In this document: piece by piece, positions 6,970-35,237 of the stretch | Numbering within the stretch: position 1 is the stretch's first letter | How the letters are laid out: each line of letters starts with the position of its first letter | Origin: Asaia lannensis NBRC 102526 | GTDB taxonomy: Bacteria; Pseudomonadota; Alphaproteobacteria; Acetobacterales; Acetobacteraceae | Assembly: GCF_024054035.1 (NCBI RefSeq) | Contig: NZ_JAMXQU010000009.1 | Coordinates: 1 to 64,000, forward strand | DNA length: 64,000 nucleotides | Reading direction: 5' to 3' | Program-made: the position numbers and the translations under genes | Notes under the pieces: model-generated | Database searches by the model: none | What the model saw: the letters and a program-made list of their open reading frames with translations, nothing else | What the model was told of the DNA's origin: nothing

Positions 6970-9228
6970 TCAGAATGCGGCAGTCAGACTGAGATTAAAG
7001 GACCGCCCGAGCCCCGCGAGCGGGGATAGGATATTGGTTTGCCTGTAATCGCCCAGCGATAAACCGCCAAGCGGCAGATAATACTTCTGGTTGAGCACGT
7101 TCTCGATGCTTGCATCGATCGTGAGCTTGCGCCAGCGATAGCTGCCACCGAGCCCCAGAAGCGCATAGCCGGGCGTTCGCGGTTCGTTGCGCAGCCAGTC
7201 GACAGTCGACTTCTTCTTGACGAGTGTGACATCCACCCTGCCTGTCCAGTTCTGCCACGTCTCGCGCAGGCCGATCGTGCCATTGATCGGCATCTGATGA
7301 TACAGACCCGAATGCGTGACCATATCCTGTCCACGGACCCAGTTGAAACTGGTCACCAGCCGCCCCTGTCCGAAGCGAGCATCATCCCATAGCCGATAGC
7401 GCGCATTGCCGTTCAGGCCGTAGCTCTGGGCATTATGATTGGCAAATTGCAGTTTTGACAGGCCGTTGCTGAACGAAGCCAGACGCACAACATTGATATA
7501 GCCTTCTGTGTAGGTATAGAAGGGCTGCAATCTTACCTCCCACCCCTCGCCTTTCGGATCGTGCCATGTGAGCGTCATGCTGGCCGTATTGGCAATTTCG
7601 GGGCGCAGGTTAAGATTGCCAACATAGCCGTTGCCATCGCCGAACCAGCCGATCATGCGCGTCGCCATCGTGCCCATGCCCCAGGCGTAGCGCTCGTAAA
7701 GATTGGGCGACCGTGTCTTGCGTGCGTAACCGCCCTCAAGCATCAGATCGTCGCGTATATGCCACCGCCCCGTGGCGGTGACGTCGAAATTCGTATCCGT
7801 CCGTCCGCGCGACGCCGCGTTGAATTTCCTGGCCGCCATGATATCGGCCATTTGCATCATGCCGGTCCAGGAATACGGTGCGACCTTGCCGGTATTCATC
7901 ATCACCAGATCGCTGCGCAAACCGAGCTGAGTGGAGAAACGCGATGTCCATTGCGCATTCCACTCGATATAATGGCCCAACCGGTCCCGGTGCCCGTTAT
8001 TGATATTATGGAATGTCCCGGGCCCCATCATCATGCTGCCCATCAGGGGCGGCCACCAGTCATTCAGGCCATTATGGTCGAAGCTGCTCCCTATCTTCAG
8101 ATTGTGACGTGTCGAGAGCGGCAAGGTCAGATCGATGGCATAGCCCGCCGTACGCGCATCGGTGTTCATCGGCATACCGGTCGTGGCACTATGGCCACCC
8201 TTGTCGTTCATCATGTTCATCACATGATCCACACGCTGCCAGAACCCGCGAACGTCCAGCGTCGCCCAGCCGTAATCGCCATGATATTTGCCGTTGACGA
8301 AGGTCGAGCGATTGTTGGTCATATCCATGTACTGGTTCGGAAATCCCTCATAGGGAATATCCTGCTGACCGAAAGTCAGCGCCAGAAGATGATTGTCTTT
8401 CTTCAGTCCGGCAGTCACGGCATGATTGAAAGAGAGATAACTGGTTGAGCGTACCTGCTTGCCATCGCCACCGGTATGATAGTTGCTGGCGTGACTGTAA
8501 GAGCCGGTATAGCGGAGGCTGAACAGGTCATTGGCCACCGTCACTGTTCCGGAGGCACCGGACCCGCCCCCGTTACTGCGATAATCGCCACGCACGTGGC
8601 CGGTCACCAGAATTTTGCCCGACTGGGCGAAAAGCGGGTCCTTGCGATCAACCTTTACTGTCCCTCCCGTGCTGTCACCACCAAGGCTGACAGGGGTGAC
8701 ACCTGCGATAGCCTCGGCGGAGGACACGCTATCGGGGTCGATATAGGACATGGCGGGATTCATGTGATTTGGGCAGGCTGAAGCGACCCGCATCCCATCG
8801 ACGATCGTCGCAACACGATCATCCGCCATCCCGTTCAGGACAGGCAGGGATGATACGCCACCGGCAGAATACTGCGTGTAGCCCAGCGCACCTTTGAGCA
8901 GCGACGCCGTATCCGGCGAATGGATTGCCGTGCGCCGTATACCCTGAACCTGCAGGTACTCCATGGGGGCATCGCTTTCCACAGAAGATGCAGGCGCTCC
9001 AGTCCGGTTGTCAGTGACGGCAGCCGGTGGCTGATCTGCCTGAGCAGAAGAGGATGTCTTGGCGCCGGTTGGTGTCCTTGCCGGAACAGGAATGATCGGC
9101 GATGACGCGGAGATGGCGTCGGCCCAGGCCGCATTGACGTTTGTAGCGACCAACAGAGCGAGCAGAGAAGTGCAGCCGAGCGCGATAGCCGCGCGGCGGT
9201 GCAACCTGCCTTCGATAGGCAGTGTCAT
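6970..9228 (-). CDS. TonB-dependent copper receptor (OprC-like)
   Basis: 752 residues from the ATG at 9228, whose signal peptide ends near NVNAAWA; a start at 9264 would add 12 residues. A plug domain includes the DGMRV and GGDSTGGTVKVD segments, then a 22-strand barrel ending in Phe. The protein is rich in Met and His. The plug carries CPNHM (8761-8775, about residues 152-156). This fits the CxxxM half of the CxxxM-HxM copper site known from Pseudomonas OprC. Such receptors import copper across the outer membrane using TonB. A DUF2946 gene lies 81 bp upstream on the same strand, a frequent pairing for this family. Confidence 0.87.
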   Translation of the reverse strand: MTLPIEGRLHRRAAIALGCTSLLALLVATNVNAAWADAISASSPIIPVPARTPTGAKTSSSAQADQPPAAVTDNRTGAPASSVESDAPMEYLQVQGIRRTAIHSPDTASLLKGALGYTQYSAGGVSSLPVLNGMADDRVATIVDGMRVASACPNHMNPAMSYIDPDSVSSAEAIAGVTPVSLGGDSTGGTVKVDRKDPLFAQSGKILVTGHVRGDYRSNGGGSGASGTVTVANDLFSLRYTGSYSHASNYHTGGDGKQVRSTSYLSFNHAVTAGLKKDNHLLALTFGQQDIPYEGFPNQYMDMTNNRSTFVNGKYHGDYGWATLDVRGFWQRVDHVMNMMNDKGGHSATTGMPMNTDARTAGYAIDLTLPLSTRHNLKIGSSFDHNGLNDWWPPLMGSMMMGPGTFHNINNGHRDRLGHYIEWNAQWTSRFSTQLGLRSDLVMMNTGKVAPYSWTGMMQMADIMAARKFNAASRGRTDTNFDVTATGRWHIRDDLMLEGGYARKTRSPNLYERYAWGMGTMATRMIGWFGDGNGYVGNLNLRPEIANTASMTLTWHDPKGEGWEVRLQPFYTYTEGYINVVRLASFSNGLSKLQFANHNAQSYGLNGNARYRLWDDARFGQGRLVTSFNWVRGQDMVTHSGLYHQMPINGTIGLRETWQNWTGRVDVTLVKKKSTVDWLRNEPRTPGYALLGLGGSYRWRKLTIDASIENVLNQKYYLPLGGLSLGDYRQTNILSPLAGLGRSFNLSLTAAF

Positions 9229-10010: not shown

Positions 10011-11255
10011 TCACAGCGCGAACAAGGACTGACCGATGAACGTACCGTCCATTTTCCCGGGGCAGGCAAAAAGGCCACCCCCTATATGCGTGGTGTACTG
10101 GTTCATCATGTCGAATTTCGCCATTTTCTCGAAGATCCGGACAAAACCAGTCCGTGGATCCTGCTGCCAGCTCAGGAACAACAGGCCTGCATCCATCTCC
10201 ATGCCCTGACGCCATGGGGGCCAGCGTTCGGCGGTGTAGCTCAATCCGTTATCGTAGGAATAGGCACGACGCAGGATCTGGGCCCCTCCGTTTTCTTCAG
10301 GGGCGGCAAGACGCGCATGGGAGTTCTGGACGGTAACCGGATTACCGTCACGGTCTTTTTGCGTGAGCGTAAGGGGCTCGAATTCATCATGACCGCCGAT
10401 GGGGGCACCACTGTGCTTTTGTCGCCCCATCGTCTCTTCCTGAAAACTTACGGGCGTACGATCCCAGTGTTCGAGCGCAATACGGATAATACGCGCGACG
10501 AGATAACTACCGCTTTGCATCCATGGCTTATCGTCAGGCGCGGCCCAGATGAAACGATCGGCGCTGTTGGGGTCCTGTCCATCGGGATTGATCGTCCCAT
10601 CCTTGAAGCCCATCAGGTTTCGCGGTGTCTTACCCTTGCCGAAATTTGGCAGGAAGCCCGCCTGCGCCCAGCGCGGGGCGGCAACGTCATAGGCCAGACG
10701 GGTGAGAATACGCGAGGCATGGAGCGTGGTCTGAGGATCGTCTGCGCAACATTGCACGCACAGATCGCCACCGGTGCGGGCGGGTACGAGCTGATCTCCC
10801 GTAAAACGCGGCAGATCGGCCAGCGCGGCCGGCCGGTGGACAGCCAGTCCGAAACGGTCTTTTCCATCCTTGATAAACAGACCCGGCCCGAACCCTATCG
10901 TTACGGTGAGATTTCTGCTGCCAAGTCCATCTGTCTCATCTGAATCGACAAGGCCGGGCATGTCCTTGCCCGCCATGAGCCTGTCTGCCGCGACCGTCCA
11001 GGCGCGAAGCATCGCGACCAGAACCTCGCGTTTCTGCGTGGTCACGTCGAACGTGATGAAATAGACATGGGGCGGCTGGGGCGTGATGATACCGGGTTGA
11101 TGCGATGGCATGCCTGTTCCGGACGTACGCTCTCCCTTGCCGGCACCGAGCGCCGTTCCAGTTCCCTCCGTGACAGAAGAGAGGCTACTGAAGGCTGCGG
11201 AGCCTGCAAGGAAGCGGCGGCGGCGCAATGAAGACCATGATTTACCATCGGTCAT
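10011..11255 (-). CDS. Dye-decolorizing (DyP-type) haem peroxidase, Tat-exported
   Basis: 414 residues. The N terminus has a twin-arginine motif (RRRRFLAG) and a hydrophobic stretch, so export as a folded protein is expected. The DyP signature GFKDGT, with the catalytic Asp, and the HARLAAP segment, which supplies the haem-ligating His, are both present, followed by ILRRAYSYDNG. Overall it resembles EfeB/YcdB. However, no efeU or efeO iron-uptake partner is nearby. It is the last gene of a three-gene operon, overlapping the beta-propeller stop by 4 bp (ATGA). The substrate is unknown. Confidence 0.9.
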   Translation of the reverse strand: MTDGKSWSSLRRRRFLAGSAAFSSLSSVTEGTGTALGAGKGERTSGTGMPSHQPGIITPQPPHVYFITFDVTTQKREVLVAMLRAWTVAADRLMAGKDMPGLVDSDETDGLGSRNLTVTIGFGPGLFIKDGKDRFGLAVHRPAALADLPRFTGDQLVPARTGGDLCVQCCADDPQTTLHASRILTRLAYDVAAPRWAQAGFLPNFGKGKTPRNLMGFKDGTINPDGQDPNSADRFIWAAPDDKPWMQSGSYLVARIIRIALEHWDRTPVSFQEETMGRQKHSGAPIGGHDEFEPLTLTQKDRDGNPVTVQNSHARLAAPEENGGAQILRRAYSYDNGLSYTAERWPPWRQGMEMDAGLLFLSWQQDPRTGFVRIFEKMAKFDMMNQYTTHIGGGLFACPGKMDGTFIGQSLFAL

Positions 11256-12406
11256 GGCTGGCTCACATTCAGCGTGTTCATGTCGTCCTCGACATAATAG
11301 AAGCTTTTGCCGTCGGGGGTCATGGCCAGACCGAAGAGATCGCCATTACCCGGAGGTTGCTGGGCCTGATCGGCGTCGATCCACTGGGCGTAGATCTGTT
11401 TTCCGGCGGCCGGGTCGATCTCGACCACCTGCCCGTTGCGTCCATTCGCGACGAGCAGATGATGGCCAGGGACCCAGATCATGGCCAGTGGCCAGTTCAG
11501 CAGGCCGCCCTTGGTAATTACCCGTCCAACTGCATCGTTGAAGCGCGTAACCGGCGCCTCGCGCGTCAGGGCGTTATCGATCGCCGTGACCTCATTGTCG
11601 TAGCCGTCTGTCACATAGAGCGTACCATCGTCATCGAGTGCGAGCCCGGTCGGCCCGAACAGGAAATTGTCGCGATCGGCGCGGGCAGAGAAGCCGCTTG
11701 CCACAACGGTCTGCTTGTCGAGCACCGGCGGTCCGCCCGCGGGGATACGGAGTTCGAGACGCAAAACGGTCGCTTTTTGCAGAATAGGTGGATAATTGGT
11801 TTTCGGGTCCACGACGTTGGGCCCGGGCAGATCGAAACCGGTCATGGATATGAAAAGTGTCGCCTTGTCACCATGATCGACACTGGCAATATCCCCCCAG
11901 GGCGCATTGATAAGCGGCCCCTTCCAGGTGGTGACGAACTTGCCATTGGCGTCGAGCACGATCAGACAGCCATCGCCTTTCGTTGTGGTCGTACCATCCT
12001 TGCTGGGTGCACTCCCAACGATAATCCACCCCGATTTGAGAATAGCGAGCGCCGTCGTCAGTCCCACCCCGCCGGGGCAGGCCGCGAGATTGCCCGGCAA
12101 ATCGGCAAAAAGACGCGCATTGCCGCTGACGGGCGAATAGGCAACAATCGTCGTGCCTGTGCCCTGCAGATTGCTGATATTGTTGAAATTCGTGACAAGC
12201 ACTTCGGCCTTTTTCAGCACACCCATATCCTGCGGAACCACCACCACCGCATAGGGATTGAGATCGCCATTGCCGGGGCTGGTCGAAGCCAGGGTCGTAT
12301 GACGATGCAGGGTTTCAAGAAAGCCTTTCTGCGCGGCATGGGCATGAGGCAACGCCGAAGCAAGGGCGATAAACGCGAAAGCGGTAAACAACAGACGGGG
12401 CGACAT
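11252..12406 (-). CDS. Secreted NHL/SMP-30-like beta-propeller protein
   Basis: 384 residues from the ATG at 12406, which has GAGG upstream and a clean signal peptide ending at HAHAAQ. The rest is repeated four-stranded blades of the NHL/YVTN kind: the segments LFGPTGLALDDDGTLYVTDGYDNEVTAID-like, HLLVANGRNGQVVEID-like and LFGLAMTPDGKSFYYVED-like each carry the G-x-y-V/A pattern. Such periplasmic propellers bind ligands or act as lactonases. No catalytic metal site is evident. It lies between the porin (9 bp) and DyP genes (4-bp overlap), indicating a shared job, perhaps supplying or trapping the peroxidase substrate. Confidence 0.8.
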   Translation of the reverse strand: MSPRLLFTAFAFIALASALPHAHAAQKGFLETLHRHTTLASTSPGNGDLNPYAVVVVPQDMGVLKKAEVLVTNFNNISNLQGTGTTIVAYSPVSGNARLFADLPGNLAACPGGVGLTTALAILKSGWIIVGSAPSKDGTTTTKGDGCLIVLDANGKFVTTWKGPLINAPWGDIASVDHGDKATLFISMTGFDLPGPNVVDPKTNYPPILQKATVLRLELRIPAGGPPVLDKQTVVASGFSARADRDNFLFGPTGLALDDDGTLYVTDGYDNEVTAIDNALTREAPVTRFNDAVGRVITKGGLLNWPLAMIWVPGHHLLVANGRNGQVVEIDPAAGKQIYAQWIDADQAQQPPGNGDLFGLAMTPDGKSFYYVEDDMNTLNVSQP

Positions 12407-25877: not shown

Positions 25878-26810
25878 TCAGCGTTCTTCGCGAAAATAGG
25901 GCGTGCCCAGAGCGGCGGGCGCGGCCATAAGGCGGCGCATGCCAGGGAAGAGGAGCGCTGGCAGGATCATGAACAGGATCGTACCGAGATAAGGCGTCAT
26001 GTTCAGTACTGCGGGGGCAATGGGCCAGCCCTGCGCCTGACCGAAGAAACTCAGCGACATGACAAGGCCGAAAAGCAATGCTGACGCTGCGGCCAGAACG
26101 GGTCGATAACCGCAGAAAATCACAAGTGCCACGGCAATCCATCCACGACCCGCGATCATCCCTTCGGACCAGACCGGCATGACCGAGAGTGTCATATCTG
26201 CTCCGGCAAGCCCTGCCAGAATGCCGCCGGCGACAAGCGCGCCGAGGCGGAAACGTCTGACCGGGATACCGACGGCATCGGCCGCCGCAGGGTTTTCACC
26301 CACGGCGCGCAGGCTGAGTCCCAGTCGGGTGCGGAAAAGCACCACATGACACAGAAGCGGGACCAGGCCAAAGGCAAGGTAAACGAACGGGCTCTGCGAA
26401 AACAGCGGACCAATAACAGGAATGGAGACAAGACCGGGTATCGACCAGTTTCCGAAAACTACAGCGACCGGCAACCCTGCCACGGTATGCCCCAGCACGG
26501 CACTCAACCCAAGCCCCAGAAAGGTGAGTGCTACGCCGCAGAGGGTCTGGTTCGCCGCCCCGTTGACTGTCGCCAGACCCAGGACGAACGAGCCGAAACC
26601 TCCGACACCCATGGCCGCGAGAGCCCCGATCCAGGGAGACATCGATGCATCTGCGGCAAGGGCAGCAACCACAGCACCGAGCGCCATCAACCCTTCCACG
26701 CCCAGATTGATCACGCCTGAGCGCTCGGCGATGACCTCCCCCTGTGCGGCCAGGGCAAGAATGCTGCCATAAGCCAGAGCATGAAGGAAAAGCGGTATCC
26801 AGACGCTCAT
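25878..26810 (-). CDS. ABC transporter permease of BMP/nucleoside type (second subunit)
   Basis: 310 residues, about 8-10 membrane spans, with the opening VIAERSGVINLGVEGLMALGA that marks the NupQ/RnsD branch of the branched-chain-type permeases. It starts within the last codons of the upstream permease (4-bp overlap). With the other permease it forms the channel of a purine-nucleoside importer. It is the last gene of the minus-strand purine operon. Confidence 0.9.
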   Translation of the reverse strand: MSVWIPLFLHALAYGSILALAAQGEVIAERSGVINLGVEGLMALGAVVAALAADASMSPWIGALAAMGVGGFGSFVLGLATVNGAANQTLCGVALTFLGLGLSAVLGHTVAGLPVAVVFGNWSIPGLVSIPVIGPLFSQSPFVYLAFGLVPLLCHVVLFRTRLGLSLRAVGENPAAADAVGIPVRRFRLGALVAGGILAGLAGADMTLSVMPVWSEGMIAGRGWIAVALVIFCGYRPVLAAASALLFGLVMSLSFFGQAQGWPIAPAVLNMTPYLGTILFMILPALLFPGMRRLMAAPAALGTPYFREER

Positions 26811-27847
26811 TTTGCGGTCTCCAGCCGGACATAGGCGGACAACTCATCGCTGACTGCAATGGCGAAAACCAGAAGTCCGGTAATGGCCAGCACGGATGAG
26901 GCGCTGACCTGCAGGGTCTGCAGAACGATGCCTGTGTTCAGGATCACGGCCATCAGGAAAGCAGCCGGAATAAGGGCCAGAGCCGAATGGCGCGCAAGAA
27001 GGGCAACAACGATACCCAGATAGCCATAACCATGGGCAAGACCGCCCTGCAGGCGATGCACCGTACCGAGCACTTCCATCATACCGCCCAACCCGGCGAG
27101 TGCACCTGATGCAAGGAGCGCCACAAAAAGACGCGGTGCGACCGATATGCCAGCATAATGTGCGGCCTCGGGATTAGAGCCGCAAAGCCGCAATTCATAG
27201 CCGAACCGGCTGCGCCCGAGCGTCAGGCCGAGCGCAACAACCAGGGCGATCGCAAACGGGCCTCCCCAGTGCACGACACCGTAGATAACGGGAATCGCCA
27301 GTGCGATGCGCTGACTTGATACCTGCGCATCGGTCACATGATCGGCCCAGGGGCCGGTGACGAGATAATAGACCATGAACGATGCGATGAAGTTCAGTAG
27401 CAGGGTCGTGATGATCTCGCTGACGCCCAGCCAGGCGCGCCCGGCTGCCGGAACGGCACTCCAGAGTGCGCCTGCAACGAGACTGGCGAGGCCGGCAAGA
27501 GGCAGCGCCACAAAAGCCGGTAAGGGCAGAAAAAGCCCGACGGCTGCAGCAGCCGTGGCACCGGCCAGAAACTGTCCTTCCGCGCCGATGTTCCAGAGCC
27601 CTGCACGCAGGCCGAGCCAGACGGCGCCACCGGTCATCAGCAGGGGTGTCATGTAAAGCGCGAGATTTTCCAGACCGAATACCGTGCCGAATGTCGATGT
27701 TATGACAAGGCGAAGCACTTCACCCAGCGGCAGGCCGAGCATGATCAGCACGAAAGCCAGAACAAGACATACGAAGCAGAGTGCCAGAGCCCGCCCGGCA
27801 AGAATGCGGTGTGCGGGAACGACGGCGAGACGGATCCTGCGGCTCAT
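26807..27847 (-). CDS. ABC transporter permease of BMP/nucleoside type (first subunit)
   Basis: 346 residues, about 10 spans. The segments LWNIGAEGQFLAGA and ELRLCGSNPEAAHYAGI are the conserved coupling and core motifs of the NupP/RnsC permeases. It overlaps its neighbours by 4 bp on both sides, which points to a single polycistronic message with the ATPase and the second permease. Confidence 0.9.
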   Translation of the reverse strand: MSRRIRLAVVPAHRILAGRALALCFVCLVLAFVLIMLGLPLGEVLRLVITSTFGTVFGLENLALYMTPLLMTGGAVWLGLRAGLWNIGAEGQFLAGATAAAAVGLFLPLPAFVALPLAGLASLVAGALWSAVPAAGRAWLGVSEIITTLLLNFIASFMVYYLVTGPWADHVTDAQVSSQRIALAIPVIYGVVHWGGPFAIALVVALGLTLGRSRFGYELRLCGSNPEAAHYAGISVAPRLFVALLASGALAGLGGMMEVLGTVHRLQGGLAHGYGYLGIVVALLARHSALALIPAAFLMAVILNTGIVLQTLQVSASSVLAITGLLVFAIAVSDELSAYVRLETAK

Positions 27848-29424
27848 GAGGATTTCTCCCGGTTCTGTCCACTCATCAAGGCGCCGAGGCGTCCGCGGTC
27901 GAAATCACTGCGCTCGACAACCGTCATCAACTGACCGGCGCACAGGACGGCAATGCGATCACTGAGCGCCATCAGCTCGTCCAGATCCTCGGATACGAGC
28001 ACGACGGCGCGCCCCTCGTCGCGGATATCGGCCAACGCCTCGCGCATTGTCGCAATGGCGCCGATATCGAGGCCGCGACTGGGATAGCTTGCGATCAGGG
28101 CACGATGGGCAATCATGCGTTCGCGCGCCAGCACCATGCGCTGCTGGTTGCCCCCCGAAAGACCGCGTATCGGCGTCAGCGGATCAGCAACCGTAACCTG
28201 CGCCTGTTTCAGAAGAGACGTGGTGAAGGCCATGGCAGCCTGGGCGTGATAGGCAAAGCGCCCGCCAACCGGATGCGTTCTGAAAACACGCATGACCGCA
28301 TTATCGACCACACCGAGCGCGGGTGCGAGTGCCTTGTGCAACCGGTCTTCCGGGACATAACCGATCCCGGCTGCGCGAAACGCATCGGGAGAGCTGCCCT
28401 GCATCGCCTTGTCCCCTATGCGGACCTGTCCGGTTTCAGGGGGATGCAGTCCAGCCAGCATATCTGCCAGCTCGGATTGCCCGTTCCCCGTGACCCCGGC
28501 CACGCCGAGAATTTCGCCAGCCCGGATGTCCAGCGAGAGCGGATGAAGCCGCAGGCGACCCGACCGATCACGTGCGGTGACATTGTCCAGACTGATGACG
28601 CATTCCCGTGTCTCACGCGGCGCCTTGCGTGGATAGGCGCTTTTCTGCTCGACAGGGCGTCCGATCATCTCTGTCACAAGCGTCGCAGGGTCTGTCTTGT
28701 CTACACGGTGACTGCCAGCCACACGCCCATGACGCAGGACGGTGACACGATCGGCGAGCGCCATGATTTCGTCGAGCTTGTGACTGATCAGAATGACCGC
28801 CCCGCCGCCATCGCGAAACCGACGCAGCGCGGCATAAAGCTCGCCCACTTCAAGGGGGCTGAGCACGGCTGTCGGTTCATCGAGAATGAGCAGCCGCGCA
28901 CCGCGCGAGAGAACGCGCAGGATCTCCACGCGCTGCTGTTCGCCAGCAGTAAGACTGTCGATCGGCGCATCGGGGCGTATATCGAGGCCAAATCGCGTGG
29001 CTTCCTGCGTGGCCCGTTTAGCCAGCGCGCCGGCGCTCAGCCAACGACCGGTTTCTTTCCATCCCAGCGCAAGATTCTCGGCCACGGTAAAACGCGAAAC
29101 CAGCTTGAAATGCTGGTGTACCATGCCAATCCCGGCTGCGATTGCTGCCTCGGGACTGTCGAACCGCACGCCGTAACCATCGAGAATAAGCTCGCCTTCA
29201 TCCGGCTGATACAACCCGGTGACGATATTCATGAGGGTCGACTTGCCCGCGCCGTTCTCACCGAGCAGCGCATGGATCTCGCCGGGGTAGAAATCGATCG
29301 TGACATCCTTGTTCGCGATCACACCGGGGAAAAACTTCGCAATGGCGGAGAGTGTCAGAAGCGGCGGTGCGCCAGCTGGAAGTGCTTCCGGCCGTTCACC
29401 GGCGCCATGGAACAGATCAGACAA
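27844..29424 (-). CDS. Nucleoside-type ABC transporter ATPase (two ABC domains)
   Basis: 526 residues with two fused nucleotide-binding domains, as in NupO, RnsB and RbsA. The first has GENGAGKST (Walker A), LTAGEQQRVEI (signature) and LLILDEPTAVL (Walker B). In the second, Walker A is degenerate (GVTGNGQSEL) and the signature is LSGGNQQRMVLARE. Walker B is altered (ALIASYPSRGLD, no Asp-Glu pair), as is usual in this family. It energises import of the BMP-bound ligand, probably purine nucleosides. Confidence 0.92.
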   Translation of the reverse strand: MSDLFHGAGERPEALPAGAPPLLTLSAIAKFFPGVIANKDVTIDFYPGEIHALLGENGAGKSTLMNIVTGLYQPDEGELILDGYGVRFDSPEAAIAAGIGMVHQHFKLVSRFTVAENLALGWKETGRWLSAGALAKRATQEATRFGLDIRPDAPIDSLTAGEQQRVEILRVLSRGARLLILDEPTAVLSPLEVGELYAALRRFRDGGGAVILISHKLDEIMALADRVTVLRHGRVAGSHRVDKTDPATLVTEMIGRPVEQKSAYPRKAPRETRECVISLDNVTARDRSGRLRLHPLSLDIRAGEILGVAGVTGNGQSELADMLAGLHPPETGQVRIGDKAMQGSSPDAFRAAGIGYVPEDRLHKALAPALGVVDNAVMRVFRTHPVGGRFAYHAQAAMAFTTSLLKQAQVTVADPLTPIRGLSGGNQQRMVLARERMIAHRALIASYPSRGLDIGAIATMREALADIRDEGRAVVLVSEDLDELMALSDRIAVLCAGQLMTVVERSDFDRGRLGALMSGQNREKSS

Positions 29425-30514
29425 GCCCGGAAACCCCCTCGACCTGCCAGTTCCAATGGAAGATTTCCATATCCGTCATCGTCTGACCTGCTGCGACCCT
29501 GATCCGCCCGGCTGAATCCCTGATCGGCCCGGTAAAGGGCGACCAGCCGCCAAGCATACGGTCGCGCGCGGCATCGGCTTCCTGTCTTATACTCTGCGGA
29601 ACGCGTGCGCCCCATGCATCGCGGTCGACACCGTGACCGAGCTTGAGGAACGTACCCGAAGGACGCCAGCGCCCGGCAAGGCGCGCGGAAATGAGATCGC
29701 GATAATAATCGACGAAGTCCAGCACGACGGAGCTGACATAAGCGTCGGGGCCGAACTGACGCATGTCGGTATTCCACATGGCGGCCCAAACGCCACGCTG
29801 CTGCGCAACTCTGAGATAACCCGGATCGTCCATGATACCGCACAGGAAATCGCAACCGCTATCGATCAGTGCTGCCCCTGCCGAGGCGGCTGCCTGCGGG
29901 TCGAACCATGAATTGATCGAGATGACGCGCATCGTCGCCTGCGGATTGACCGAACGTGCACCGAGCAGGGTAGCGTTCGCACTGGCGATAACCGATGTGG
30001 TGGGAAAAGAGGCGACATAGCCAAGACGGCCTGTCTTGCTCAGACGTGCGGCTGCGATGCCGATGACATAGCTCGCATACCAGTGGGTGATGTAATACCA
30101 GCCGAGATTGCCTGTTACGTTATTGCCGTCGCACTCCATGAAGCCGACATCGGGCGCCTGATCGGCAACATCCTTGATGAAATCACCATAATCGGAGGTA
30201 GCGATAACCATCTGCGCGCCCTCGGCCACGAACTGGCGGAACAGGCGCGTCGCATCTGCCGAATAGGGAATGCTTTCCACATAAAGAGAACGCATACGCG
30301 GAAAATGCGCCTTGAGAGCACGTATCGCCTTGTCATGCATCTGCGACCAGCCACCATCGTTGATCGGGCTGGTATGGCCGAAACCTACAAGCAGATCCTG
30401 CTCGGCAATCGGCGCGAAACGCGTGGCCGCGCGCGCAAACGATGTAAGGGCAGCGCATCCCGCTGCGCCTAGCATGGCGCGACGGGTCAGCAACGGGGGT
30501 GTTTTCAGTGGCAT
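29417..30514 (-). CDS. BMP-family (BmpA/NupN-like) substrate-binding protein
   Basis: 365 residues. The N terminus carries a twin-arginine motif (LTRRAMLGAAG) and hydrophobic stretch ending at FARAA; there is no lipobox, so a soluble periplasmic protein is expected. The core has the BMP-type GFGHTSPINDGGWSQMHDKAI opening and the GVDRDAWG hinge region. BMP proteins bind purine nucleosides or related bases. It overlaps the ATPase (8 bp) and the GST-like gene (10 bp), so uptake and oxidation genes are in one operon. Confidence 0.9.
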   Translation of the reverse strand: MPLKTPPLLTRRAMLGAAGCAALTSFARAATRFAPIAEQDLLVGFGHTSPINDGGWSQMHDKAIRALKAHFPRMRSLYVESIPYSADATRLFRQFVAEGAQMVIATSDYGDFIKDVADQAPDVGFMECDGNNVTGNLGWYYITHWYASYVIGIAAARLSKTGRLGYVASFPTTSVIASANATLLGARSVNPQATMRVISINSWFDPQAAASAGAALIDSGCDFLCGIMDDPGYLRVAQQRGVWAAMWNTDMRQFGPDAYVSSVVLDFVDYYRDLISARLAGRWRPSGTFLKLGHGVDRDAWGARVPQSIRQEADAARDRMLGGWSPFTGPIRDSAGRIRVAAGQTMTDMEIFHWNWQVEGVSGLV

Positions 30515-31071
30515 GACGGAATTCCGGGCATCACGACAAATCCGGGCTGCTCGCGCATTTCACGGACGAAACGACGAAGCGCGGGATAAAGATCGAGCGC
30601 GATATCGAGATCGCGCGCCAGCCCGGCAATGGGAAAAACCACAATATCGATAGCGCCGATCCTCTCTCCGGAGAGCCATTTATTACCTGCCAGGAGCGTG
30701 TTGGCCAGATGGTCTTCCAGTTCACGATAAAGACAGGTCATGTCCTCTGTCTCCGGGCGCACAGGCATTGTTGCGGCGAATGCCGTGCGCCTGGCCACAG
30801 AAAACGCCTCCAGTCCCTCAATGGCCCAGTGCATTTGCGCGATCCTGTCCGGTCCGGGCCATGGAAGCGCGCCCGGGCACAGACGCGAGAGCTGCTGGAT
30901 ACATTCATAAAGGCCGACGCAACAGACGCCCTCGTCCTCATCGGTCAGGGTTGGCCCAAAGGTCTCGGCGCGTCGGTCCGTGGTCATGACGAGGGGAACA
31001 GAAGCCAGGGAAGCGGCCAGACGCACTGCATAGCTGCGCTCGTCGATCATCCATCCATGCAGGGTCAGCAT
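30505..31071 (-). CDS. GST-like protein (NdmE-like accessory subunit candidate)
   Basis: 188 residues from the ATG at 31071, which overlaps the Rieske stop; a longer reading from 31110 is possible. The N-terminal half gives a thioredoxin-like fold start (LTLHGWMIDERSYAVRLAASLASVPL) and the C-terminal half is helical with GAIDIVVFPIAGLARDLD, which corresponds to the conserved GST N-capping Asp region. The usual catalytic Tyr/Ser/Cys near residue 10 is not clearly present. In the caffeine system NdmE is a GST homologue with a structural role. The position beside a Rieske protein suggests the same here. Function is inference. Confidence 0.7.
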   Translation of the reverse strand: MLTLHGWMIDERSYAVRLAASLASVPLVMTTDRRAETFGPTLTDEDEGVCCVGLYECIQQLSRLCPGALPWPGPDRIAQMHWAIEGLEAFSVARRTAFAATMPVRPETEDMTCLYRELEDHLANTLLAGNKWLSGERIGAIDIVVFPIAGLARDLDIALDLYPALRRFVREMREQPGFVVMPGIPSCH

Positions 31072-31661
31072 ACGATTTCCTCGAGCGTATCGCGCAGATG
31101 TGTCAGCCATTGCGCTGCCTTCAGACGCGCGCTTTCATCGCTTACTGCCATATGAACCATGGTAATCCCGACCTGAGGCGTGTGAAGGGCCAACAGCCGA
31201 TCGGCAGACAGGCGCCACTGCCCTTCCTCAAGCACAAGGCTTGCTCTCGTTTCGTTTTCAGGCGCGCGTATGGCCAGGCTCCTGACGCCATACCAGTTGC
31301 CCTGGGCAGGTGCGATCGCCGCGCGCGCGCCACGATTGGCAAAATCGACCCATAGCATCCCGGCCTTCTCCACCACCTCGTAAACGCGGGTCCGGATCGT
31401 GGCAGGGGGATTGAGCGAGGGGTGAGCCGGTATGACCCGGCAATGCCCGTCACGATCGAACTGCCAGCCATGATACTGGCAGGTCAGACGGTCATTGCGC
31501 ATGAACCCGAGGCTCAGGCGCACACCGCGATGCGGGCAGCGATCCTCCCAGGCATGTGCAATCCCTTGCGCGTCGCGCCACAGAACGACCGGTTCGTCGT
31601 AGTGACGGGCCGGCATGATGTCGCCGTGCCGCAGATCTATCGAGAGCCCGACAGGGATCAT
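31065..31661 (-). CDS. Stand-alone Rieske [2Fe-2S] protein
   Basis: 198 residues. The Rieske cluster motifs are intact: CPH (C42, H44) and CQYHGW (C61, H64), spaced as in Rieske non-haem iron oxygenases. After the Rieske domain, about 90 residues follow that do not contain the N-x2-D-x2-H-x4-H iron site, so there is no catalytic domain. It should carry electrons to a partner. The likely partner is the Rieske-less catalytic subunit encoded divergently at 32013. It overlaps the acylphosphatase-like gene (ATGA) and the GST-like gene (7 bp). Confidence 0.88.
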   Translation of the reverse strand: MIPVGLSIDLRHGDIMPARHYDEPVVLWRDAQGIAHAWEDRCPHRGVRLSLGFMRNDRLTCQYHGWQFDRDGHCRVIPAHPSLNPPATIRTRVYEVVEKAGMLWVDFANRGARAAIAPAQGNWYGVRSLAIRAPENETRASLVLEEGQWRLSADRLLALHTPQVGITMVHMAVSDESARLKAAQWLTHLRDTLEEIVC

Positions 31662-31897
31662 GGCAAGCCCTCCTCATTCCAGTCCGTCACAAGACAGTTG
31701 GCCGGCCCGAGAACACAGGCCATGATGAACATATCGATCAGATCGCGCACGCCGTGCAGAAGAAAGACGATCCGACGACAGTCGAGATGAGCCGCGCTTA
31801 CCCTGATTGAAAGAAGCCGGGCACGGTTTTGCGCAAACAAGCGAAATGCTTCTGTATCGAAATGACCGCTCAGGTAGAGTGCCGTGCCTATTGTCAT
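31658..31897 (-). CDS. Acylphosphatase-fold protein lacking catalytic residues
   Basis: 79 residues from an ATG with a very strong ribosome site (GGAGGAAGGGAG). Secondary structure reads beta-alpha-beta-beta-alpha-beta: TALYLSGHF, TEAFRLFAQNRARLL, RVSAAHL, RRIVFLLHG, RDLIDMFIMACVLGP, CLVTDW. That is the acylphosphatase order and size, and the end (helix, Gly-Pro, strand to xxDW) fits well. The GxVQGVGFR loop with its catalytic Arg and the catalytic Asn are not visible, so enzymatic activity is doubtful. It is the first gene of the purine uptake and Rieske operon. The fold call is my inference. Confidence 0.6.
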   Translation of the reverse strand: MTIGTALYLSGHFDTEAFRLFAQNRARLLSIRVSAAHLDCRRIVFLLHGVRDLIDMFIMACVLGPANCLVTDWNEEGLP

Positions 31898-31950
31898 CGC
31901 TCCCTTCCTCCGCAGCCGGTTTGAGCATGATCCTGCCAGTAATAATTTTT

Positions 31951-31978
31951 TTGACAAGTGGAGAGCCACTATTAATGT
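31951..31978 (+). promoter_or_regulatory. Promoter of the oxygenase/deaminase operon with embedded inverted repeat
   Basis: A perfect -35 (TTGACA, 31951-31956) and a -10-like TAATGT (31973-31978) are 16 bp apart. Between them AGTGG and CCACT (31957-31970) form an inverted repeat, a possible operator. The start codon at 32013 follows by about 35 bp. The minus-strand operon starts within the same 115-bp gap. Confidence 0.55.
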
Positions 31979-32012
31979 TAACGATCATGCAACGTTGAGG
32001 AAACATGGCGCG

Positions 32013-32876
32013 ATGATCAGTGCTCCCCCTGCCGATGCCGTCTCGACCCGACAATGGTATCCGCTCGGCATGGTGGAAACGCTCACGACCGATGTCACTG
32101 AAACCCTGTTGCTGGACAGGCTGCTGCGTCTGCGCCGCACGGGCGATAACGAGGCACAGGTTACCGAAGGCAAGCGCGCCCTGCCCTGTGTTATACGCTA
32201 CGGCTATGTCTGGACGACGCTCGATCCGGATGAAATGTCCCGGAGCCATGTGCCGGTCATCGAAGAGGCGGACGAGCCTGACAGACGGCTCGTCTGCTGC
32301 GGCTCGATCACCGTTCATGCCTCGGGGCTGCGTGTGGTCGAGAACTTTCTCGACATGGCGCATTTTCCGTTCGTTCATACGGGGATTCTGGGAGCCGAGC
32401 CGCATACGGAGGTCGAACGCTATACGATCGAGACCCGTGAGGCAGGTCAGGAAATATGGGCAACCGATTGCCGCTTTTTTCAGCCACAGGGCGCGCTCTG
32501 TGCAGATGGCGGCCTTCTGACCGAGTACGTCTATCGCATCGCTGCGCCGTTCTCGACCCTGCTTTACAAAACGAACCCGAACACCCCCTCGCGCAAGGAC
32601 GTGATCGCCCTGTTCGTGCAGCCCATGACGCGCGCTATCTGCCGGGCTCACCCGGTCATGTTTCTGCTCGATGACGGTTCCGCCCTCGATGCCCTGGTCG
32701 AATTCCAGCAGATGATTTTCCTTCAGGATCGCAGCATTCTGGAAAACCAGCGGCCTGTTGCCATGCCCCTCGATGCGTCGACTGAGATACCCACCCTCGC
32801 CGACCGCTCTTCCATCGCCTATCGACGGTGGCTCAAGGCACAGGGGGTTACCTACGGCGCCGCACAAGGCGCCTGA
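32013..32876 (+). CDS. Rieske-less catalytic subunit of a Rieske-type oxygenase (NdmC-like)
   Basis: 287 residues from ATG 32013. It begins like a Rieske oxygenase alpha subunit (QWYPLGMVETL, residues 14-24) and rejoins the pattern at YGYVWTTLDP (63-72). The whole CxH...CxxH cluster segment between these is missing. The catalytic domain is intact: N111-x2-D114-x2-H117-x4-H122 provides the mononuclear iron ligands, and the late LVEFQQMIFLQD segment supplies the usual acidic ligand. Electron supply must come from a separate Rieske protein, as for NdmC in caffeine N7-demethylation. The downstream deaminases suggest a purine substrate. Confidence 0.85.
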   Translation: MISAPPADAVSTRQWYPLGMVETLTTDVTETLLLDRLLRLRRTGDNEAQVTEGKRALPCVIRYGYVWTTLDPDEMSRSHVPVIEEADEPDRRLVCCGSITVHASGLRVVENFLDMAHFPFVHTGILGAEPHTEVERYTIETREAGQEIWATDCRFFQPQGALCADGGLLTEYVYRIAAPFSTLLYKTNPNTPSRKDVIALFVQPMTRAICRAHPVMFLLDDGSALDALVEFQQMIFLQDRSILENQRPVAMPLDASTEIPTLADRSSIAYRRWLKAQGVTYGAAQGA

Positions 32877-32907
32877 TCAAGAACCCGGTACTATGACAGG
32901 AACAAAA

Positions 32908-33405
32908 ATGATCCATACGGCGTCGGATGACGATCTCGTTTTTCTTCGACATGCGTTTTCGGTAGCGGACCAGTCCCGCCTGGCGGGCGATCATCCTTTT
33001 GGAGCGATCCTGGTCGATGGCCAGGGCGAGATCGTCATGACCCAGGGTAATGGTTTCAGCAGCGAGGGCCATGACATGACGGCTCATGCAGAGCGTTTGC
33101 TGGCCAGCCGGGCAAGCAAGGCCTACAGCGCCAGTGCCCTGCGCGATTTCACCCTCTACAGTTCGGCAGAGCCTTGCGCCATGTGCGCGGGCGCCATTTA
33201 CTGGGCCGGTATAGGCCGTGTGGTTTACGGGCAGTCAGAGGCGCATCTCAAGGCCATGACCGGCAATCATCCGGAAAACCCGACACTGGATCTACCGTGC
33301 CGTCTCGTTTTCGCTGCAGGTCAGCGCGATACCGTCGTGATCGGCCCGTTGCTCGAGGAAGAAGCAGCCGATCTGCAACGCAGTTTCTGGGAAACGCATT
33401 CGTGA
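32908..33405 (+). CDS. CDA-fold nucleobase/nucleoside deaminase (GuaD-like)
   Basis: 165 residues from ATG 32908, chosen for the AGGA 7 bp upstream; ATG 32893 is possible. The zinc site is complete: HAER, with the His ligand and catalytic Glu, and SSAEPCAMCAGAIYWA, with the two Cys ligands of the PCxxC motif. The layout is that of bacterial guanine deaminases and TadA-like proteins; the AIYWAGIGRVVYG segment is close to Bacillus GuaD. Guanine to xanthine is the most likely reaction given the neighbours, but cytosine-type or modified-purine substrates cannot be excluded. Confidence 0.88.
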   Translation: MIHTASDDDLVFLRHAFSVADQSRLAGDHPFGAILVDGQGEIVMTQGNGFSSEGHDMTAHAERLLASRASKAYSASALRDFTLYSSAEPCAMCAGAIYWAGIGRVVYGQSEAHLKAMTGNHPENPTLDLPCRLVFAAGQRDTVVIGPLLEEEAADLQRSFWETHS

Positions 33406-33533
33406 CCGACCTCTGACTTTCATCGCCACCAGAATCTTCGCCCGCTCTCGAATTGCAAATGACGATCCGGATGTCCGCCCATCCGGAACAGGGCCATTGC
33501 GGAACGCCTCTTCATCTCGATACGGAGCCGTCC

Positions 33534-34895
33534 ATGTCTGCCCCTCGCACCTCACTGCTCATTACCGATGCCTTCCTCTATCTCGATCGTGGGCTGGAAA
33601 TCGCCAATGGCTGGATTTTCATAGAGAACGGACGTGTCGTCAGCCATGGCCCCATGACGACCACGCCACCCAAGGCTGAAACGCGCCTTTGCGCCAATGG
33701 CCGTATCGTGACGCCAGGCCTGGTCAATGCCCATCACCACATGTACCAGAACCTGACACGGTCCTACGCTCCTGTGGTCAACGGGACATTGTTCGAGTGG
33801 CTGAAGGGCCTATACCCGCTCTGGGCCACGCTGAATGAAGAGAGTGTCTATCTCTCTTCCTATGTCGCCATGATCGAACTGCTGCTTGGTGGCTGCACCA
33901 CTTCCATGGATCACCATTACGTGCACCCTCGTCCCAATCTGATCGACGCACAGATCAGGGCCGCCAGTGAGATCGGTTTCAGATTTCATGCGACGCGTGG
34001 CTCCATGACGCGCTCGGTCAAGGATGGCGGCCTGCCGCCGGATAGCGTGGTGCAGGATGAAGATACGATTCTGGAAGATAGCGAGCGGTTGATCCGGCGT
34101 TATCACGACCCGTCGCCGGGCGCGATGATACGCGTGGCGCTGGCGCCCTGTTCGCTGTTCAGCGTGTCAGAAACGATCATGAAAGAGAGCGCATCGATGG
34201 CAGAACGCCTCGATGTGCGTCTTCACACCCATCTTGCAGAAGACCACGACGAGGACCGCTACTGTCAGGAAGTTTATGGCTGCACCCCGACGGAATATTT
34301 CGAGCGCTCGGGCTGGGCGAGCGAGCGCTCCTGGGTTGCGCATTACATCTATCCTGCGACCGACGAAATCGATCGCCTCGCCCACAGAGGCGTTTGTGCA
34401 GCGCAATGCCCATGCTCGAACATGATGATCGGTGGCGGATCAGCCGATGCCATGGATTTGCGGCGTCGTGGCATGAAAGTCGGGCTGGGATGCGACGGTT
34501 CCGCCTCGACGGATCATGCTTCGCTCTGGCTGGAAGCGCGTATGGCCCTCCTCCTCGGGCGATATCGCAACGGACCGCACAGCATGACGGCACGCGATGC
34601 ACTGGACATGGCCACTCGTGGCGGGGCTGCCTGTCTGGGCCGGGAAGACGAAATCGGCCATCTGAGGCCAGGTGCCTGCGCCGATCTCGTGATCTGGCAG
34701 CTTCCTCCCTTCTCGCAGGCGGGCGCGCTCAGCGATCCTGTCGAGGCGCTCCTGCGCTGCGCACCCGCTACGGCCTGGACCACCGTCGTCAACGGGCGCA
34801 TTCTGGTGTCGGAGGGCGCACCCTGCCAGTCGGGTCTTGAAACCATCCTGCGCGCGCATGAGCACGCTGCACGCAGAATGCAAAAGCTCGATTGA
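33534..34895 (+). CDS. 8-oxoguanine-deaminase-type amidohydrolase
   Basis: 453 residues from ATG 33534 with GGAG upstream; an in-frame ATG at 33453 is less likely. It is an amidohydrolase-superfamily (COG0402) enzyme. The metal ligands are seen in VNAHHHM (N-terminal HxH), HTHLAED (third His region), AHYIYP and the late GCDGSAS Asp. The family includes 8-oxoguanine deaminase, which makes urate, along with isocytosine and cytosine deaminases; the MYQNLTRS and TTSMDHHYVHP stretches favour the 8-oxoguanine group. Beside a possible C8- or N7-acting oxygenase this would release urate-type products. Confidence 0.87.
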   Translation: MSAPRTSLLITDAFLYLDRGLEIANGWIFIENGRVVSHGPMTTTPPKAETRLCANGRIVTPGLVNAHHHMYQNLTRSYAPVVNGTLFEWLKGLYPLWATLNEESVYLSSYVAMIELLLGGCTTSMDHHYVHPRPNLIDAQIRAASEIGFRFHATRGSMTRSVKDGGLPPDSVVQDEDTILEDSERLIRRYHDPSPGAMIRVALAPCSLFSVSETIMKESASMAERLDVRLHTHLAEDHDEDRYCQEVYGCTPTEYFERSGWASERSWVAHYIYPATDEIDRLAHRGVCAAQCPCSNMMIGGGSADAMDLRRRGMKVGLGCDGSASTDHASLWLEARMALLLGRYRNGPHSMTARDALDMATRGGAACLGREDEIGHLRPGACADLVIWQLPPFSQAGALSDPVEALLRCAPATAWTTVVNGRILVSEGAPCQSGLETILRAHEHAARRMQKLD

Positions 34896-35237
34896 GGGTG
34901 CCTGTTCGGGCCGCTGGTCGGGCGTGAAGGCCCTTCGGGTCTGACACGACAAGTTATGGGAACCGGTCAGGGCGGTGTACGTCGTGACCGGTATCAACAT
35001 ACGAAATCTTCGCCCACATAGTAAGGGCACGCCCATGAACCTATCGCAAACAGACGATCGTGAAGACCAGCACTCCCACAAGCGACGACACGGGCTGAGA
35101 AGCGCACTGAAACACGCTCATGCATCTGTACGGAGACAGTCGCAGCCGATCCAGACACATTGCGAAACTGGTCTCGACAGAACAAGATCAGTAATGAGCC
35201 ATAATTCTTGTCTTTCAGTTCAGGATTCCGCATTCAG
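34896..35237. other. Intergenic region with inverted repeats
   Basis: Just after the amidohydrolase a small stem (GGGC/GCCC, 34918-34932) could end the transcript. ACCGGTCA (34962-34969) and TGACCGGT (34985-34992) form a perfect inverted repeat with a 15-base centre. A short open frame from 35035 is not protein-like. No gene is called. Confidence 0.45.

Follow-up and report, generated by a model that had tools for sequence, protein, structure and literature searches.

The first 64,000 nucleotides of contig NZ_JAMXQU010000009.1 of Asaia lannensis NBRC 102526 (RefSeq assembly GCF_024054035.1; hereafter the window) include a purine-related locus in which two divergent gene groups flank a short intergenic region. 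The locus encodes the parts of a split Rieske oxygenase, namely a catalytic subunit that lacks the Rieske cluster, a free Rieske protein, a glutathione S-transferase (GST)-like protein and a small acylphosphatase-like protein. We tentatively favour, at a little under an even chance, the proposal that these parts make up one multi-protein Rieske-type mono-oxygenase which removes the N7-methyl group of guanine-type purines and thereby feeds the purine pathway. The sequence itself shows which parts exist, how far they are conserved, where they fall in the tree, how they have degenerated and which genes accompany them; from this we infer a single complex, an electron path and a substrate.

The 7-methylxanthine N7-demethylase NdmCDE of Pseudomonas putida CBB5 is described, in the excerpt of PMC4408171 available, as the unique case of a Rieske oxygenase that is split and cannot do without a GST-like partner. 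The same excerpt mentions 18 further organisms with ndmCDE-homologous clusters of unknown function, so that kin of the split system had already been noticed. Like NdmCDE, the A. lannensis locus has a Rieske-less catalytic subunit, a Rieske domain on a separate protein and a GST-like partner. It differs in that its Rieske protein stands alone with no reductase gene nearby, an acylphosphatase-like protein is added and formaldehyde genes are absent, while guanine-analogue hydrolases and a BMP-type importer are present. Among the papers listed from the literature searched, with most subscription journals outside its reach, we found no description of a free-Rieske form with a fourth protein and no paper naming both "8-oxoguanine deaminase" and "Rieske". 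Look-ups in the same literature for a cytokinin-degradation reading and for bacterial 7-methylguanine breakdown were likewise without result.

The protein components and their conservation

The three genes for the catalytic, Rieske and GST-like proteins occur together in all of the best 80 of at least 539 confirmed relatives obtained from one scan of genome contigs (the named loci), which by record title come mostly from rhizobia and acetic acid bacteria; 70 of the 80 also have an importer with a BMP relative. The same triad is present in 17/17 fetched loci of the bacterium's own family. The first count there was 15/17, the Rieske genes of the other two being located afterwards, and closer inspection of these two loci, as well as of one named locus with an apparent fusion, speaks for separate Rieske proteins. 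Co-occurrence in relatives, which had been set beforehand as one test of the proposal made in a first-pass annotation of the window, is thus borne out. In three other Asaia the proteins are 58-72% identical, and in each of the three genes the changes fall predominantly at third positions. This identity pattern, together with the co-occurrence, means that the triad is not a chance association.

The catalytic subunit (32013-32876, plus strand) starts at the ATG at 32013, which gives 287 residues, and is 71-72% identical to the copies in Asaia bogorensis and A. siamensis. Pfam VanA_C matches it and Pfam Rieske does not (the scan was run on a longer open reading frame of 330 residues from the GTG at 31884). 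In an alignment of 12 sequences, N111-x2-D114-x2-H117-x4-H122 and D239 are invariant; from Rieske oxygenase structures, H117, H122 and D239 are presumably the iron ligands. The results from hhalign indicate that the subunit retains the start (WYPLG) and the end of the Rieske domain, whereas the cluster-binding segment is gone. Its match with NdmA, NdmB and SxtT-type oxygenases is confined to the catalytic domain, and that of the Rieske protein to the Rieske domain. NdmA and NdmB are among its best solved relatives.

The Rieske protein (31065-31661, minus strand; 198 residues) matches Pfam Rieske with 77 bits and contains the motifs CPH and CQYHGW, but has no iron site. The first-pass annotation, which saw an iron site without a cluster in one protein and a cluster without an iron site, free of any reductase, in the other, was therefore correct on both. 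Rieske proteins of 198-245 residues are found in 79 of the 80 named loci; the remaining one (L056) has 321 residues with a doubtful start, and none is of reductase-fusion length. The AlphaFold2 model of the window protein (mean predicted local distance difference test score, pLDDT, 92) aligns in Foldseek with whole Rieske oxygenases at a template-modelling (TM) score, relative to its own length, of as much as 0.79, a value given without the aligned ranges, while hhalign matches it to full-length oxygenases at 99.9% over the Rieske domain only. Because this TM-score exceeds what a Rieske domain alone could give, the C-terminal half is best read, on the model, as a reduced catalytic domain without an iron site; a structure-based alignment of Rieske proteins took in 50 of the 80 named loci. 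When the two main subunits are compared with each other, they have in common the Rieske-domain start and the strand that follows (hhalign probability 91.7%, E value 7.7e-07). They look like degenerate copies of one ancestral oxygenase between which the cofactors have been divided, the cluster being lost in one and the iron site in the other, and would then be a natural example of an oxygenase with its two cofactor sites split between two degenerate paralogues.

The GST-like protein is encoded at 30505-31071 (minus strand). The comparison with A. siamensis makes the ATG at 31071 a likelier start than position 31110, which results in an overlap of 7 nucleotides with the Rieske gene; that the two genes overlap had been noted before. 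GST_C is the sole Pfam model over the cut-off, and the AlphaFold2 model (pLDDT 92) has the whole GST fold. A loop with a conserved Pro (NPxGxLPxL), which we take to be the glutathione site of GSTs, is present in most of the relatives shown (24 of 48 alignment rows) and absent from the window protein and from those of A. siamensis and Gluconobacter cerinus, the structure-based alignment having taken in 47 of the 80 named loci. With this loop missing, the window protein is more likely to serve as a scaffold than as a catalyst.

The earlier proposal of a three-part enzyme was right in that three genes belong together, but the count is too low, since a fourth conserved protein exists. It is encoded by a reading frame of 79 residues (31658-31897, minus strand) that was absent from the list used for the first-pass annotation and that overlaps the start of the Rieske gene by 4 nucleotides. 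A hidden Markov model (HMM) built from 67 copies, all from outside the Acetobacteraceae, matches the window copy with an E value of 1.9e-17. Matches are present in 71 of the 80 named loci, of which 67 are the training copies (L048-L051 and the window were not in training), and the model also matches 9 of the 17 own-family loci and a Komagataeibacter nataicola plasmid (L148); it found no match in the fused clusters L042, L043, L145, L146 and L147. Pfam Acylphosphatase scores 30.1 bits on the Paracoccus copy (cut-off 22.5) and just under the cut-off on two other copies, with no match for the copies of the window and R. tumorigenes. In the Paracoccus protein the positions that we assume to be those of the catalytic Arg and Asn of acylphosphatase are not kept.

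Kinship with NdmC and the hydrolase partners

The Rieske-less catalytic subunits form a clade apart from the HpxD-type and NdmA/B-type oxygenases (support 100/99) in a tree of 57 rows drawing on 35 of the 80 named loci; a second tree dropped three long or doubtful rows. The clade holds the window subunit and also NdmC, here represented by two clusters that carry frmA/fghA and NdmA/B-like genes and are read as caffeine-type; they stand in for CBB5, of which no sequence was in the tree. NdmA and NdmB, the N1 and N3 methylxanthine demethylases, are by contrast full length and lie outside the clade. The likeness of the three window proteins to NdmC, NdmD and NdmE, as first suggested, is upheld, the Rieske protein being the counterpart of only the N-terminal part of NdmD. 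The fused NdmCDE-type subunits constitute one group (100/95) nested among the split forms. A tree in which the split forms are held together is not rejected (approximately unbiased test, p 0.062) and the tree does not fix the earliest branchings of the split clade, so that an origin of the fusion after the split is favoured but not shown.

Within the split group, 84 positions of the catalytic part show a conservation of at least 90%. Both caffeine-type sequences agree with the group at 66 of these, all three HpxD-type sequences at 35 and at least five of seven NdmA/B-type sequences at 27, and 16 diagnostic residues set the Rieske-less clade apart from HpxD. The 66 positions in common with caffeine-type NdmC would be expected from descent and are compatible with a conserved N7-directed chemistry.

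Among the gene partners of the module are hydrolases of guanine analogues. When the amidohydrolases beside it were typed by motif in the 80 named loci, 30 loci had an NdmH type, 25 a GuaD type and 17 an 8-oxoguanine deaminase type, some loci having two; at least one recognised type was present in 62. NdmH converts N2,N2-dimethylguanine to xanthine, and its signature CQxxN was taken from the same source (excerpt of PMC13054789); all 30 NdmH-type loci also have the Q-W-W-Y spacing. NCBIfam models confirm GuaD for L035 and 8-oxoguanine deaminase for L039, L060 and L066, while L036, of NdmH type, is below the 8-oxoguanine deaminase cut-off. In A. lannensis, the amidohydrolase encoded at 33453-34895 (plus strand) belongs to the PCSxFS type of the 8-oxoguanine deaminase family and, unlike NdmH, has PCSLFS in place of the CQxxN signature. 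It scores 563.6 bits with NF006055, over the equivalog cut-off of 532, and sits in a subfamily apart from the higher-scoring 8-oxoguanine deaminases. It is a candidate 8-oxoguanine deaminase, a family name that does not prove the substrate.

The proposed reaction and competing explanations

In the mechanism that we propose, the free Rieske protein would receive electrons from a reductase and hand them on to the mononuclear iron in the NdmC-type subunit. The GST-like protein and the acylphosphatase-like one would serve as non-catalytic scaffolds. The BMP importer would take up guanine-type purines, from which the oxygenase would remove the N7-methyl group with release of formaldehyde. Thus 7-methylguanine would yield guanine, the substrate of GuaD; N2,N2,7-trimethylguanine would yield dimethylguanine, the substrate of NdmH; and 7-methyl-8-oxoguanine would yield 8-oxoguanine. 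In the next step the companion hydrolases would take off the amino or dimethylamino group at position 2, and the resulting xanthine or urate would enter the ordinary purine pathway.

The kinship with NdmC points to N7 as the site of action, and the combination of a constant oxygenase, interchangeable guanine-analogue hydrolases and xanthine-oxidising genomes suggests that the oxygenase prepares the substrate of the hydrolase. Xanthine dehydrogenase (XDH) is over the cut-off in the genome of A. lannensis, in 15 of 18 module-bearing genomes of the family (matches of at least 44% identity) as against 17 of 38 taken from the other 231 (Fisher p 0.009), and in 48 of 50 genomes drawn from the 80 named loci (the family and named sets may overlap by up to 8 acetic acid bacteria). 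Since XDH is present in this and most module-bearing genomes, a reaction upstream of xanthine would not be redundant, and the idea that the module simply replaces XDH was rejected on the same grounds. FrmA is over the cut-off in the A. lannensis genome, in 17 of the 18 module-bearing genomes and in 21/25 overall. Action near N7 or C8 of a purine, as first suggested, is plausible, and on this analysis N7-demethylation is favoured over C8 hydroxylation.

Several observations weigh against N7-demethylation by a single complex. The likeness to N7-demethylases partly reflects common descent. On a plasmid of Roseicitreum (L044), neither a Rieske nor a GST gene lies within 9 kb of the catalytic gene, and a Lichenihabitans stretch cut at the record start (L149) also has the catalytic gene without either; 10 of the 80 named loci have no importer and 18 no recognised hydrolase nearby. 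Among matches covering more than 60% of the reference, the 97 neighbourhoods contained no FghA relative, unlike the caffeine clusters, and no FrmA relative of more than 28% identity. A VanB/PDR-type reductase was not found in the A. lannensis genome, which leaves the electron donor as a gap: the top PDR-reductase match there is a flavohaemoglobin-like reading frame, and of two Fer2 matches one is a short, ferredoxin-size reading frame and the other, just upstream of XdhB, is read as XdhA. Of the split-type clusters compared, those of Paracoccus alcaliphilus and of the K. nataicola plasmid were the only ones in which a PDR reductase gene was seen, and the search of the 80 named loci found no such gene. 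Finally, the window and 17 of the 80 loci have hydrolases that look like 8-oxoguanine deaminases, which suggests oxidation at C8 instead.

The last point leads to the main rival, a guanine C8-hydroxylase producing 8-oxoguanine from guanine, which the neighbouring deaminase would turn into urate by a molybdenum-free route past xanthine. We consider this fairly unlikely, but it accounts more directly for the deaminase of the window itself. An 8-oxoguanine deaminase over the cut-off is present in 18/18 module-bearing versus 12/38 other genomes of the family (Fisher p 4e-7), and the window-type clade in 15/18 versus 1/38 (Fisher p 7e-10, descent ignored in both; the tree held 39 chosen matches, genomes without a row were counted as lacking, and one over-cut-off match, G242, was left out); in 8 of the 15 the window-type deaminase lies away from the module. 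Deaminases of 8-oxoguanine type stand beside the module in Paracoccus as well as in the 17 named loci, and OHCU decarboxylase occurs in 24/24 genomes including that of A. lannensis, so urate is probably usable; a PuuD-type urate oxidase was not found in its genome and is present in 4/24 overall, uricase and HpxO not having been searched for. Set against this, the 30 loci with an NdmH-type hydrolase have that enzyme instead, and 15 have GuaD without an 8-oxoguanine deaminase type. XDH and guanine deaminase would already yield urate. Among enzymes of the same cluster, those of NdmH type have dimethylguanine as their preferred substrate (excerpt of PMC13054789), and relatives of the deaminase also deaminate isocytosine and guanine (excerpt of PMC6186785).

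A molybdenum-independent xanthine or hypoxanthine C8-hydroxylase, that is, an analogue in pieces of the HpxDE xanthine hydroxylase of Klebsiella and Pantoea, seems improbable to us. HpxD is a distant relative with Rieske oxygenase chemistry on purines, hpxDE is reported to oxidise hypoxanthine and xanthine (excerpt of PMC7373994), and xanthine is the product of both GuaD and NdmH. But HpxD is full length with its own Rieske domain, has an adjoining PDR reductase and belongs to the separate clade marked off by the 16 diagnostic residues; the locus contains no such pairing of a full-length Rieske oxygenase with a PDR reductase. The XDH counts given above also speak against such an enzyme, as does the 62% relative of HpxD that the genome has. 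Equally improbable is an ordinary NdmC function in the demethylation of plant methylxanthines, with 7-methylxanthine arising from caffeine or theobromine. It has in its favour the NdmC kinship and a kombucha Komagataeibacter plasmid with two modules beside two NdmA/B-like oxygenases. However, none of the four Rieske-domain matches in the A. lannensis genome is NdmA/B-like, the closest being the HpxD relative, and the partners of the module are guanine-analogue hydrolases rather than frm genes. That the genes are mere neighbours, or the module is decaying, is very improbable. In its favour, the GST-like protein no longer has the whole of its likely active site, the Paracoccus small protein lacks acylphosphatase residues and L044 lacks the partner genes; against it, third-position changes dominate, the triad is complete in 80/80 loci, and each of the two main proteins supplies what the other lacks.

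A more far-reaching version of N7-demethylation, which we regard as rather unlikely, would have a four-subunit oxygenase of two complementary degenerate halves and two pseudo-enzyme scaffolds demethylate N7 of RNA-cap-type guanines (7-methylguanine and N2,N2,7-trimethylguanine). In rhizobia, acetic acid bacteria and related organisms, a dedicated breakdown pathway would be completed by an exchangeable GuaD, NdmH or 8-oxoguanine deaminase, and NdmCDE would be a derived, fused offshoot of the broader system.

In the best 80 relatives the split form lacks a reductase fusion and mostly has the extra small protein. The function of the unassigned ndmCDE-like clusters becomes testable, and Rieske chemistry is connected with newly described hydrolases of modified guanines.

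Gene order, importer and further observations

The minus-strand group comprises the small protein, the Rieske protein, the GST-like protein and a four-gene BMP-type importer (25878-30514). The latter consists of a BMP/PnrA-type substrate-binding protein (29417-30514; Pfam Bmp), an ABC transporter ATPase (27844-29424; Pfam ABC_tran in two stretches) and two permeases (26807-27847 and 25878-26810; both Pfam BPD_transp_2), all on the minus strand. The plus-strand group comprises the catalytic subunit, a small zinc deaminase and the amidohydrolase. The zinc deaminase (32890-33405; Pfam dCMP_cyt_deam_1) belongs to the guanine/guanosine/cytosine deaminase-TadA superfamily; its top solved relatives are CMP/dCMP deaminases, followed by the guanine deaminase 1wkq. 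These profile matches agree with the earlier description of a nucleoside importer and two deaminases beside the oxygenase genes. The region between the two groups (31898-32012) is presumed from its position to contain the promoters. Divergence had been named as a difference from Ndm, but in plasmid loci of Rhizobium, Shinella and Agrobacterium the genes are contiguous and run in one direction, so it is not a defining one. In the named loci without importer L059, L075 and L085, the neighbouring genes gave no hint of the substrate.

HpxD/HpxE-like dioxygenases and 8-hydroxyguanine/guanine deaminase-like genes have been tied to xanthine-sensing riboswitches (excerpt of PMC7373994). An Rfam scan found no family at the gathering score in the window, with one chance-level match in 28500-35200, and riboswitch control of the locus was rejected.

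The full-length HpxD relative of A. lannensis (62%; G000:C11, L157:6800-7894) adjoins a LysR regulator, and XDH is elsewhere in the genome. Three genomes of one genus without an XDH match (G054 with locus L033, G180 with locus L034, and G131) have a Rieske oxygenase less than 2 kb from OHCU decarboxylase, the oxygenase of L033 and L034 being 60% identical to HpxD; a molybdenum-free route of xanthine oxidation is possible there. On the K. nataicola plasmid pKNA08 from kombucha (L148, 6932-18997), two split modules and the small protein are accompanied by a PDR/VanB reductase and a pair of NdmA/B-like oxygenases. This resembles a caffeine demethylase cluster of the split type, in a strain from tea fermentation.

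Whether remote window-type deaminases go together with formaldehyde genes was considered, and the idea dropped: of nine deaminase neighbourhoods fetched, one (G060) had such a link, and no other gene was common to most. In that genome a second glutathione-dependent formaldehyde dehydrogenase lies near the window-type deaminase (L212, 5479-9536). An extra SPHxPYSC amidohydrolase stands beside the module in eight loci (L055, L056, L057, L063, L066, L067, L070 and L094, near 10800-12300), and for that of L066 the top model is N-ethylammeline chlorohydrolase, below the cut-off. Beside the importer of L055, L057 and L058 (near 7500-8520) there is, as in ndmCDE-like clusters, an isopenicillin N synthase-like dioxygenase, which is 53-55% identical to one of P. 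putida Tik1.

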